A stretch of DNA of 64,000 nt from positions 1,860,001 through 1,924,000 of the forward strand of contig AP026798.1 of assembly GCA_033127725.1 (NCBI GenBank), written 5' to 3'. The first letter of the stretch is position 1, and each line of letters starts with the position of its first letter. The translations under genes and the position numbers were made by a program. This DNA comes from Bombiscardovia nodaiensis (GTDB lineage: Bacteria > Actinomycetota > Actinomycetes > Actinomycetales > Bifidobacteriaceae). Under the pieces are notes generated by a model that had not been told where the DNA came from, searched no databases, and worked only from the letters and a program-made list of their open reading frames with translations. Of this stretch, positions 29,719 through 33,903 are shown piece by piece.

Positions 29719-30159
29719 GTTTGCCCGCTTACTGGCAGATTTGTTACTGATTTGCTTGCATAGCATTCGCCGCACTCACATACTCGCGATATTTACGAGC
29801 GTATCGTCAGTACGCTCGCAGCAGGCCACCACCCGACTCATCCGCTGAACTACAAGCCTGTCAGCGGCTCCGCCCATGTTCAACGAATAAGTGCAGCACC
29901 TTCTTTTGCATTAGTTTTCTATATCATCACCAACAAATCCAAGCGCTTCGTTTCCTTATTCATCCAGCCACGGGCCGAACTTACAGGTTCAGGCACGCTG
30001 CTATACTGGCAGTATATTGCGTCCAAGGCCCTGAGTTGGGGAACCAGAGTCTCCTGCGGGCGCACAAGGGGAATACAGGAGAATACAACGGAACTACAGG
30101 AAACGGCCCAAGTTGGACAACGTCGCCTACCGTTGTGCATCTTGAGGAGACTGACCACC
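29719..30159. other. intergenic region upstream of the RCC1 gene
   Basis: No gene is seen. A stem CGAGCGTA/TACGCTCG at 29796-29818 may end the synthase transcript. TATACTGGCAGTATA at 30002-30016 is a perfect 15-base palindrome that includes a TATACT -10-like element, about 150 bases before the RCC1 start; it could be promoter and operator at once. The leader after it is purine-rich, with several ATACAGGA-like strings. Confidence 0.45.
30002..30016 (+). promoter_or_regulatory. palindromic -10-like element before the RCC1 gene
   Basis: TATACTGGCAGTATA is symmetric around a central G and contains TATACT. TATACTGGCAGTA recurs at 56938-56950 before the ThiY-like gene. The symmetry suggests a repressor-binding promoter or coincidence of a strong -10 with a shared start-site context. 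Confidence 0.4.
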
Positions 30160-33100
30160 ATGCACCACACTCGTTCGCTCAACGCCACCATCCTCACAAT
30201 GGCTATGATCCTCACGATATCCTGGGGGGGGGGCTACCCAAGCTGCGCACGCTAACCCGCCCCTCAACCGCGGCACACCTACCAGTGAAACTGTAGACGG
30301 TTTCACCCTAAGCCCCACCAAAGGCCCCGCTAACATAAACGGCAACCACGCCACCATCACCCCACCACCCACTGTAGAACGCTTTACACAAATCAAAGCA
30401 GGCAACGCACACGTTCTCGCCCTCGGAGACGACGGCAACACTTACGCCTGGGGTTGGAACGATGCTGGGCAGCTCGGCGACGGCACCTACACCGACAGCG
30501 CCCTGCCTATACGCGTCAAAACGCCAGCTGGAGTACGCTTCACTAAAATCGACACAAGCCAGTCGCACAACCTCGCCATCGGCACCGACGGCCACATCTA
30601 CAGCTGGGGATACAACGGCTACGGCCAAGTCGGCGACGGCACTGTCGTCGCCTACCGGACTAAACCCGTACGTGTGCTCGACCCTGTAGGCGAACCCAAC
30701 CACACCTGGGTCGCTATCAGCGCAGGTTACGTTCAAAGCCTCGCCCTCGACAGTGACGGCCACATCTACAGCTGGGGAAATAACCAGTACGGTGAACTTG
30801 GCGACGGCACCAACACTGACAAACACTCACCTGTGCGCGTCGTCGACCCAGCACGCCAGCCCAACACCACCTGGGCCTCCATCGAAGCTGGTGACATGCA
30901 CAGTCTCGCCATCGACACCAACGGCCACGCCTGGGCCTGGGGCCGAAATGACTTAGGCCATCTCGGCGAAGCCTCCGGCACCAACCAGAACACACCCGTA
31001 CGCGTCTTCGACCCATTCGGCCACTACAACACCACCTGGATCTCTCTGAACGCAAACAACTCCCACAACCTCGCCATCGACAGCACACACCACCTCTACA
31101 GCTGGGGAAACAACGCCAACTACCAGCTTGGCGACGGCACCACCACCACCAGAAGCTGGCCAGTTAGCGTCCAGACCCCGGCGGGTAAACCCAACATCAC
31201 CTGGGCCGCCGCCAGCCCAGGGGGCGCATACAGCATCGCCCTCGACACCGACGGCCACGCCTACGGCTGGGGTTACAACGGTTTCGGCCAGCTCGGCAAC
31301 AACACCACCACTAACGGAACCACACCCGCTCGTGTCTTGGACCCAGCAGGTAAACCCAACATCACCTGGAAAACCATCAGCTCTGGGGGGCACCACGTCG
31401 TCGCCCTCGATAATGACGGCCACGCCTACGCATGGGGAAACAACGACTCTGGGCAGCTGGGCGACGGAACCACCACCGACCGGCACATTCCAGTACCAGT
31501 GATAATGCCCAGATACACTATCACCGATGTCAACGTCGGCGGCACTACCATTAGCGCCAGCGACAGGACCATCAACCCCACCACCGGCGTCTGGGATATC
31601 ACCATGCCCAACCATGTCCCCGCCACAGTCGATGTCGCCGTCACCTACCGGCTGGACGGCATAGACGGCAGCGGCAACTTCATCACTGGTAACCAGACCG
31701 GCATCGTCACCCTCCACTACACCTACTCCGCCACAAACGCCGTCAAGTTCAGTCTCGGCGACGCGGCCGGTAAGACCACTAGCCCGGTGCCAGCGGACCA
31801 GTGGGTCTATTCCGATGATGCGCAGCCAATCTACCAGCCTGACACTAATCCAACCTGGAGCGGTCATCGGTTCGTGGGCTGGTTCCAGGCCGACGGTAGC
31901 CACTGGGATTTCACCACTCCCGTCACGGCCAGCATGACATTGAAGGCGGGATGGGATGGCACACCCACGTTCACCATGGAACCGCACAACGGGCCAGTCT
32001 CGGGCGGCACGCCAGTGCGAGTCACGGTCAACCCATCGTCCTCAGGTCTTCGGTTCACGCAGGTGGCAGCCGGTTCCGACTTCACCCTGGCCTTGGGCAC
32101 CGACGGGCACGTATACGCCTGGGGCGCGAATAATACGGGCCAGTTAGGCCAAAACGACACTGCCGCCCGCACTGGGCCGGTCGAGGTCCGTCTGCCGGCA
32201 GACAAGGTATTCACCACGGTGGCAGCAGGCAGCCAACAGGGCTTCGCTGTAAGCGCTCAGGGCCAGGTGTACGCCTGGGGCGCAAACTCGGGCCAGCTGG
32301 GCGACGGCACCGCTACCGACCGCGCCACACCCGTCGTGTTCGTCTTGCCTACAGGCGTCAAAGCCGTAAGCGTGGCGGCAGGCAGCAACCACAGCCTGGT
32401 CCTGGCTGACAACGGCCACATCTACACCGCCGGACTCAACAGCGACGGCCAGCTCGGGCTGGGCGACACTACCACCCGGACGACCCCCGCCGACCTGGCC
32501 CCACCAGTAAACCACAGCTACAAGGCCGTGGCCGCCGGTGCCAGTCACAGCCTCGCCCTACTCGACGACGGCAGCATACGAGCCTGGGGCAACAACGCCA
32601 ACGGACAACTCGGCAACAACACCATTACAGGCTCCACTGCGCCGGTGGAGACCACCCTGCCCGCAGGCACCACCGCCGCACAAGTCACGGCAGGAGGAGA
32701 CACCAGCGGTCTCATCGACTCCACCGGGCGCGCTTGGACCTGGGGCAACAACGCCAATGGACAGCTTGGCCTGGGCGACACTGCCAACCGCACCGTACCC
32801 ACTGTGGTCAGCGGACTGCCCAGCACCGTCAGCCGTATCAGTATGGGCGGCACACACTCCCTGGCCGTCAGCAGCAACAACCTGTACGCCTGGGGCAACA
32901 ACACCTACGGCCAACTCGGTACCGGTGACACTACTGCCCGCACGGCACCGACCACGATCACCCTGCCTGGCAACGCCACACCCGCCTGGCCCCGAGCTGG
33001 CAGCACGCACAGCATCTCCAGCACCACCGACGGTGCCGCCCACACCTGGGGAGACAATCGCAGCCGTCAACTGGGTGACCCCGCAGCAGGCAGCCAACGC

Positions 33101-33493
33101 AGCAGGCCAAAAAAGATTGCCATAGCCGATCCAACAGTGACCAAACTGCAATTCGACACACCCAGCTACACCGTTGCAACCTCTTACGACAGCAGCACAG
33201 GCACGTGGACCGCCAGCACTCCCGCCCATCCCGAAGGACAAGTGCCCGTCACGCTCACCTGGACCATCGCAGGGCGCCCCCAGCCAAACGCCAGCATCGA
33301 CGGAGGATTCAACTACTACATCCATCTCACCCTGCCCAAGGCCGGAGTCATTCCCCTCCAGCAATGGAGCGGAGGAGGCCTCCTCGTGGCCAGCGCCCTA
33401 GCCGCCCTCACCTACGGCGGCCACGCAATCGCCAAGCGCAAAACCCACCCCGGCCGCCACAGCCAGCACTCCCCGAGCGCAGCCAGCAAGTAA
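30160..33493 (+). CDS. secreted RCC1 double-propeller protein, phase-variable, in OFF frame here
   Basis: The ATG at 30160 follows GAGGAGA and encodes a signal peptide (MHHTRSLNATILTMAMILTI), but the frame then runs into TAA at 30253-30255. The mature protein is open in another frame from about 30224 to 33493. The two join if the G10 run at 30224-30233 loses one G: the result is 1110 residues with an Ala-His-Ala signal cleavage site. Domains after joining: seven RCC1 blades (first propeller), a TIG-like and a Listeria-Bacteroides repeat-like region (about 31.5-32.0 kb), seven more RCC1 blades, a small beta domain, then LPKAG, a membrane segment and a basic tail, a possible non-canonical sorting signal. 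An internal GTG (30674) without a signal peptide would cut two blades. A ligand-binding surface role is inference. Confidence 0.82.
30224..30233 (+). repeat. homopolymeric G10 tract within the signal-peptide region
   Basis: Ten consecutive G, far above chance and longer than any other single-base run noticed in the window. It lies between the hydrophobic core and the predicted cleavage site. Length 9 (or 12) puts the RCC1 gene in frame; 10 and 11 do not. Confidence 0.92.
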
Positions 33494-33519
33494 GTAAGCA
33501 AGCACGGAAAGTAAAGTAC

Positions 33520-33558
33520 AGTAAGGGCGACCAACTCATTCGGTTGGTCGCCCTTACT
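33520..33558 (+). terminator. strong terminator between the RCC1 gene and higA
   Basis: AGTAAGGGCGACCAAC (33520-33535) and GTTGGTCGCCCTTACT (33543-33558) form a perfect 16-bp stem with a 7-base loop. Pyrimidine-rich sequence follows. It lies between two convergent genes and probably serves both. Confidence 0.8.
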
Positions 33559-33570
33559 GCTCCTTAACTC

Positions 33571-33903
33571 CTACACACCGGCGGAATGCTTCTGGGAGGG
33601 AAAAGTGACCTCGAACTGACCGCCAAGAGCGTGCATCGCGCCTAGAACGGTGCTGAAAGCTGGGTCGCCATGCGCGCTTAAGGACTTGTACACGCCCTGC
33701 CGCGTGCGCTGCGTGTCTTGGGCAATGTCGGAAACCTTCTTCCGCGCTCTCGCCGCCGTACCCAGAGCGCGCGCAAAGAAGGCAGCACCGTCCCTGGGGT
33801 TTGCCAGCTCGTTCGCTTCCTCTAAGGCAGCGCTGAGATAGTCGCTAATCTCTTCCTCGGTCTGCAGGTAGTCCTCAGGCCTAAATTCACTAACCGCTGT
33901 CAT
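33571..33903 (-). CDS. higA: HigA-type addiction-module antitoxin, solitary
   Basis: A 110-residue DNA-binding antitoxin. The helix-turn-helix lies at about 55-90 (VSDIAQDTQRTRQGVYKSLS) and the ending PAFSTVLGAMHALGGQFEV is typical of antidote proteins paired with RelE/HigB-like toxins. GAGGTGAAGGT precedes the ATG at 33903. Its start overlaps the stop of the truncated toxin frame as in intact higBA pairs, where the toxin comes first. Without a toxin it may persist as an autoregulated repressor or as protection against related toxins. A palindrome at 34011-34034 upstream could be its operator. Confidence 0.85.
   Translation of the reverse strand: MTAVSEFRPEDYLQTEEEISDYLSAALEEANELANPRDGAAFFARALGTAARARKKVSDIAQDTQRTRQGVYKSLSAHGDPAFSTVLGAMHALGGQFEVTFPSQKHSAGV

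Follow-up and report, generated by a model that had tools for sequence, protein, structure and literature searches.

A G10 tract between signal peptide and RCC1 body: a probable slippage switch in a surface-protein family of Bombiscardovia

In Bombiscardovia nodaiensis, a gene for a large RCC1-repeat protein is split by a run of ten G from the signal-peptide reading frame that precedes it. The question is whether this tract is a switch on a surface protein, or whether the broken frame has some other origin. The window analysed here is a stretch of 64,000 nucleotides (positions 1,860,001-1,924,000 of a chromosome of 2,288,291 bases, in a genome that also holds a 3,292-base contig). The initial annotation of this stretch read the tract as a phase-variable switch, here in the OFF state. 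The first half of that reading receives good support from comparison with other genes and genomes, while the OFF state is not established.

The RCC1 locus and its G tract

The features of the locus are collected in Table 1. The arrangement originally described is there in the sequence: the frame from ATG 30160 starts like a signal peptide and terminates at TAA 30253-30255, and the G10 tract splits it from the RCC1 frame. The Ala-His-Ala site claimed with it is equally present, in the RCC1 frame. Pfam finds RCC1 in 13 stretches of the body (E 1.1e-153). Initiation at the earliest possible in-frame start of this body, a GTG, would give an RCC1 product without a signal peptide.

Table 1 Features of the RCC1 locus, in positions of the window
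Feature	Position	Strand	Basis
Promoter-like site, TG ahead of second hexamer	29980..30007	+	consensus match, weak
Ribosome-binding site GAGGAG, 10 nt 5' of the ATG	30144..30149	+	sequence
Signal-peptide reading frame as assembled, 31 codons and stop	30160..30255	+	sequence
Open frame of RCC1 surface protein, 1094 residues	30209..33493	+	ORF; Pfam RCC1
G10 tract, proposed slippage switch	30224..30233	+	sequence; recurrence in family
Ala-His-Ala, signal-peptidase-type site in RCC1 frame	30245..30253	+	sequence pattern
GTG, earliest possible in-frame start of RCC1 frame	30674..30676	+	scan for ATG/GTG/TTG
Flg_new (Listeria-Bacteroides repeat) domain, slightly below Pfam cut-off	31823..31948	+	25.1 bits, cut-off 27
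LPKAG, sorting-motif-like, then hydrophobic segment and basic tail	33332..33346	+	sequence
Inverted repeat of 18 pairs, terminator-like read on the - strand	33518..33560	.	inverted-repeat scan

The signals flanking the gene are at chance level. The promoter-like site was found once against 0.8 expected from shuffles, and terminator-like inverted repeats numbered four against 3.7 expected, which is not above shuffles. The repeat listed in Table 1 sits between the RCC1 gene and a convergent open frame at 33571-33903, perhaps as a shared terminator.

Apart from the G10 tract, the window has no run of at least seven G or C. A long G run is by itself unsurprising, because 89 of 100 shuffles matched or exceeded the observed number of G8 matches. 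What stands out is the placement of the tract and its recurrence, and not the length of the run.

The leader family and its relatives

Across the whole genome, on both strands, there are 53 runs of eight or more G (2 G8, 7 G9, 38 G10, 2 G11, 3 G12 and 1 G13). The lengths peak at G10, where chance numbers would be expected to fall off with length; this reading is taken from the whole-genome count as it stands, unshuffled. All 53 tracts were tested, and 27 of them end a signal-like leader of a large surface protein; a first count, which covered 24 chosen stretches, had given the same 27. The window gene is thus a member of a large family, which is invisible from a single window.

The layout of the family is strongly conserved. 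Each of the 27 tracts lies 53-64 bases 3' of an ATG with a ribosome site, the distance being exactly 56 in 21 of them, and the body that follows is open for at least 1.4 kb. The bodies comprise 21 with RCC1, five with leucine-rich repeats (LRR) and one with Flg_new repeats. An A-x-A site (by a simple pattern) is present in 21/27 members and an LPx[A/T]G motif (also by pattern) in 17/27, where the fetched stretch truncates five of the 27; signal peptides and anchors were judged from the sequence rather than by a prediction program. Near-identical leaders occur on unlike bodies, as with MRVKHT..SAALVALSM at 1508305 (RCC1) and 1513029 (LRR). The pattern ATGC-N(47-55)-CYTK-G8 has 21 matches in this genome, and the reversed control pattern has none. 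Twenty of the 27 tracts are in frame, and 26 of the 27 are G10, irrespective of frame.

Not all paralogues carry the tract. A motif scan of the fetched stretches gave 38 RCC1 open frames, 21 with a tract and 17 without; some of the 38 are fragments of a single gene or run off the stretch. One of them (L065), with its tract 563 nt into the open frame, was counted by hand as tract-bearing. Two tractless paralogues, at 543520 and 1683543, retain the leader sequence L-G-G-G in mixtures of GGA and GGT codons, the latter also keeping a G6. In the bodies of the family, GGG makes up 302 of 2860 Gly codons (10.6%), and three in a row therefore seem to reflect the DNA itself and not codon use.

A further candidate at 243245 (G12, with 777 nt open) fits mechanically, and was set aside as a chance match on account of a leader that is not signal-like and a body without RCC1. 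Some other tracts deserve a record of their own. The RCC1 gene at 1625702-1629200 (L076) is a family member with an out-of-frame tract that is also broken in mid-gene, leaving two open frames, one of 594 residues and one of 597. At 606404 (L041) a G10 lies upstream of, and not within, a gene starting MKQIVKKKWLAGAISFAAAGAMVIGA, and might be a promoter-spacing switch. The sites at 1728653 and 1932316 (L087, L088) are near-identical and have G10, and 2078891 (L091) has a similar flank and G10; the other strand there possibly holds another switched gene.

The initial annotation had suggested comparing orthologues for a G tract at the same site. Such tracts are found in 27 genes here and in at least 39 of Bombiscardovia apis. 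The layout pattern has matches in 6 of 189 Bifidobacteriaceae genomes, four of the six belonging to the same genus, with no control matches. It matches once in each of two small genomes of another genus of the family (G147:C28:10510 and G148:C5:136548). In B. apis the fetched stretches contain 38 fitting tracts, 30 of them G11 and eight G10, with 9/38 in frame. Thirty further exact G10/G11 tracts of this species yielded one extra RCC1 member, at 1279932 (G11, out of frame), and a site at 470360 (TTG start, out of frame) is a doubtful candidate. Both lie outside the 38-tract count and the 131-tract count given below, and the family in B. apis has a size of at least 39 tracts.

A second layout is found in other bee-type bifidobacteria. 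Here the tract is 3' of the likely cleavage site and 5' of the sequence GRQTPRV or a close variant. It is present in 11 of 27 genomes of the genus, with 79 tracts of 11-17 G (14 G11, 51 G12, 7 G13, 4 G14, 2 G15 and 1 G17) and no control matches. At least two RCC1 motifs are found in 46 of the 79 bodies; among the 33 without them, the stretch ends inside 30 and leaves three uncut. A leader could be assigned to 66 tracts, 17 of them in frame; the remaining 13, which have none under the looser rule (the stricter rule left 65/79 unassigned), enter no frame count. Taken over both layouts, 131 tracts from 13 genomes are assigned, and 46 of them are in frame (20/27, 9/38 and 17/66).

Tract length varies inside single genomes of the second layout, from 12 to 17 G in one (G007) and from 11 to 14 G in another (G019); the latter has 13 tracts, of which 11 are assigned, six in frame and five out. 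Outside the 131, two tracts of B. actinocoloniiforme are G13 out of frame and G12 in frame, and five sites of B. xylocopae (G026) with 12-13 G include one in frame, one out and three without a clear body; in contig L010 of B. xylocopae no family tract was seen. The comparison spans species and paralogues, and across it the anatomy, the recurrence, and the variation in length and frame are directly observed.

Several further observations were made in these genomes. The B. actinocoloniiforme proteins from several assemblies appeared mosaic by eye, and are unfit to serve as alleles. Two scans of viral contigs with the tract flanks, for strain-level variants, gave no match. In one genome (G011) most of the tracts read fall outside the surface-protein family. 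Two of its G14 tracts, at 835475 (L185) and 2084835 (L188) of contig C1, closely follow the lipobox-like Cys of what look like substrate-binding lipoproteins; one of the two is in frame and the other out, and switching may reach transport lipoproteins.

Tract lengths, frame states and alternative explanations

What can be read from the lengths is limited by how they are distributed. Reciprocal-best pairing of B. nodaiensis with B. apis gives ten pairs, of which seven are G10 in frame in the one against G11 out of frame in the other; in six of these seven, the next 150 nt after the tract align without gaps, and the seventh has two single-base gaps. Over the whole genomes, exact G10/G11 counts are 38/2 in B. 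nodaiensis and 22/46 in B. apis. The shift from 10 to 11 is not restricted to the family, since the tracts outside it move too (12/1 in B. nodaiensis and 14/14 in B. apis, with the two extra candidates removed). The uniform lengths point to a technical or genome-wide effect, and not to independent switching. The shift reflects either consensus calling or a slippage balance common to the whole genome. On both readings the loci lack independence, and the seven ortholog differences therefore do not count as seven separate events. The proportion in frame in B. nodaiensis (20/27) exceeds one third (p 2e-5) and is not the outcome of free drift, and that in B. apis (9/38) is no different from one third (p 0.23).

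The strongest alternative is that the frame break at this locus is a homopolymer error of assembly or consensus, and that the sequenced culture itself has an in-frame gene. B. apis KimH and B. nodaiensis Kim37-2 are isolates from carpenter bees in Japan with one chromosome each, and a plasmid in Kim37-2 only (PMC10433979); as described in that article, both were sequenced by PacBio Sequel or RSII, and the source genome is probably PacBio-only. The one-base offset in modal tract length between the two Bombiscardovia assemblies, within and outside the family, is what such an effect would give, and Penno et al. caution that G-tract lengths in databases may be wrong (PMC9187656). An error of this kind is a serious possibility for the window gene, if on balance a doubtful one. 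It would account for one locus, but not for 27 tracts at one site, for 11-17 G elsewhere, or for mixed lengths within a genome, and it is compatible with the switch itself. It does bear on the state of the gene. Calls of ON or OFF at single loci are unsafe, because the source is probably PacBio-only and the modal length is shifted between 10 and 11. With 26/27 tracts at G10 whatever their frame here, and 30/38 at G11 in B. apis, the window gene is not callable as OFF, and that part of the original claim is dropped. The proposal of a switch made by changes in tract length keeps the support of the 27 genes here, of the at least 39 in B. apis, of the second layout, of the variation in length and frame, of the largely intact bodies behind out-of-frame tracts, of the mixed Gly codons in two paralogues, and of the proven B. 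breve case.

Long G runs can slip during transcription and translation. The tract might thus act without any change in the DNA, through slippage of RNA polymerase or ribosomal frameshifting, to give a constant mixture of in-frame and out-of-frame product. This fits the uniform DNA length across loci, but it is hard to reconcile with genomic lengths that span 11 to 17 within one family. In B. breve, moreover, chromosomal joining of the two frames led to pili being made, while the parent had none (PMC9187656). We consider this explanation unlikely, and a change of length in the DNA remains the preferred one.

Less probable again is that the window copy is a pseudogene, locked in its out-of-frame state. 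It is out of frame as assembled, and among the matches listed for its protein (120 of 5334) there is no relative above 45% identity apart from itself; yet the body is intact over its full length, with all its RCC1 stretches and LPKAG, and so are the ribosome site and leader. More generally, the bodies of out-of-frame genes are similar in length to those in frame, with medians of 3216.5 against 3237 nt in one comparison (n = 6 and 16 uncut) and 3218 against 3278.5 nt in the other (n = 27 and 8). Some copies may nevertheless be decaying, since 5/33 uncut out-of-frame bodies are shorter than 2000 nt, against 0/24 in frame.

Finally, the family leaders, read from the ATG, do run into a Gly stretch, but that the export machinery requires Gly-Gly-Gly where the signal peptide ends, the G run being a codon accident kept by duplication, is very improbable given the low share of GGG codons, the two paralogues that write the same peptide in other codons, and the second layout, where the tract is 3' of the likely cleavage site. 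A main role as a recombination hot spot or as a G-quadruplex was also weighed, but is not the favoured reading.

The proposed switch and known systems

We consider it very probable that the G10 tract, one of 27 such copies, turns a large RCC1 surface protein ON and OFF by slippage during replication; the protein is probably anchored by sortase. Good support for a multigene family of phase-variable surface proteins comes from the sequence comparisons above. Gain or loss of a G in the tract would move the signal peptide into or out of the frame of the body. In frame, the protein would be exported, cleaved after Ala-x-Ala and anchored via LPKAG; out of frame, only a short peptide would be made, and the body would be neither translated nor exported. 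Each gene would switch separately, so that the cells of one clone would come to differ in the set of surface proteins they show. Export and anchoring of the window protein are predicted from its motifs, and we infer that tract lengths change in living cells, at a switching rate fast enough to matter. The use of the switch is probably adhesion, or interaction with host and phage in the bee gut, B. nodaiensis being probably a bee-gut symbiont.

The repair genes are of interest here. No match to MutS was found in the B. nodaiensis genome by a search that matched 11 of 14 known genomes as a positive control, and NucS is present in one copy. NucS repair is described as leaving indels uncorrected (PMC8228993), and slipped loops may therefore escape repair; polymerase proofreading may remove many of them, according to the same article.

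A bolder proposal is that a single leader, together with its G-tract switch, has been passed among surface proteins of different types: RCC1, LRR and Flg_new proteins in the Bombiscardovia of carpenter bees, with 27 and at least 39 copies, and, in the second layout, proteins of other bee-type bifidobacteria. Possibly no larger homologous family of surface proteins with independent switching is known, and this one would belong to an insect symbiont; gene conversion or a genome-wide balance of slippage would keep the whole set of each genome at a single modal length. We put this forward tentatively, as a suggestion that may well not hold.

Phase variation in many members would make each clone a mixed population; comparisons of strains by gene content would miss real variation, and ON/OFF state would confound tests of single members. 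Microbiota-free bees would then offer a model for what a commensal gains from switching its surface. The slippage mechanism is already known in bifidobacterial pili, and the RCC1 family is already known in bee bifidobacteria, where it was described in 2012 without an assigned function. No report joining this family with a G-tract switch, in 27 to at least 39 copies, was found in the open-licence literature, a body of work that has most subscription journals outside it.

The Opa proteins of Neisseria are outer-membrane barrels, and their repeat is located in the leader. They form a multicopy surface family whose copies are switched singly by repeats, with 11-12 genes in the gonococcus and four in the meningococcus (PMC5953494). 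They differ from the Bombiscardovia family in having pentamer CTTCT repeats and fewer copies, and in belonging to unrelated bacteria; the window gene has a homopolymer and an RCC1 body, with neither CTTCT repeats nor an outer-membrane barrel, and the likeness is an analogy of working only, with no kinship.

A parallel in the repeat itself is given by the contingency loci of Campylobacter, which are likewise poly-G and numerous within a genome; the tracts are mostly of 9-10, and C. jejuni is reported to have 18-39 phase-variable genes (PMC6321876). As expected of a contingency gene, a long repeat is found where it would set expression, and its length differs among related genes, with both states seen across species and paralogues. 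The Campylobacter loci, however, belong to many different homology groups, whereas in Bombiscardovia one leader is common to one surface family.

In the protein body, the nearest relatives are the surface proteins of bee bifidobacteria with RCC1 repeats, Flg_new and LPxTG (PMC3447821, PMC4449606), which number 7-24 RCC1 genes per genome, many in tandem and diversifying (PMC4449606). The architecture and the host group are the same, and the window gene has the features of this family, with a Flg_new score just short of the cut-off and LPKAG in place of LPxTG. The main texts of these two articles contain neither 'phase variation' nor 'frameshift', that of PMC4449606 does not contain 'poly-g', and no description of a switch was found in them.

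In mechanism, the nearest system is that of B. breve UCC2003, from the same bacterial family, where (in Bbr_0113 and Bbr_1889) a signal-peptide frame, a G-tract and an LPXTG body frame control sortase-dependent pili, slippage having been shown to govern their display (PMC9187656). The G-tracts of bifidobacterial pili have 8-13 G (Table 1 of PMC9187656). In both cases a signal peptide and an anchored body lie in two frames parted by a G-tract, and by sequence the window gene has the tract between a Sec signal frame and the frame of a sortase-anchored body, as in the type described by Penno et al. in 2022. It is not, however, the first gene of a pilus operon: the body is RCC1 and not pilin by Pfam, no pilus operon with its own sortase is present at the locus, and the long open frames that follow it run on the other strand. 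B. breve has one or two pilus clusters per genome, whereas Bombiscardovia has 27 single genes (at least 39 in B. apis) with RCC1, LRR or Flg_new bodies. Slippage switching in bifidobacteria, so far a matter of one or two pili, would with the present family reach dozens of genes, in an insect symbiont whose genome has no MutS match.
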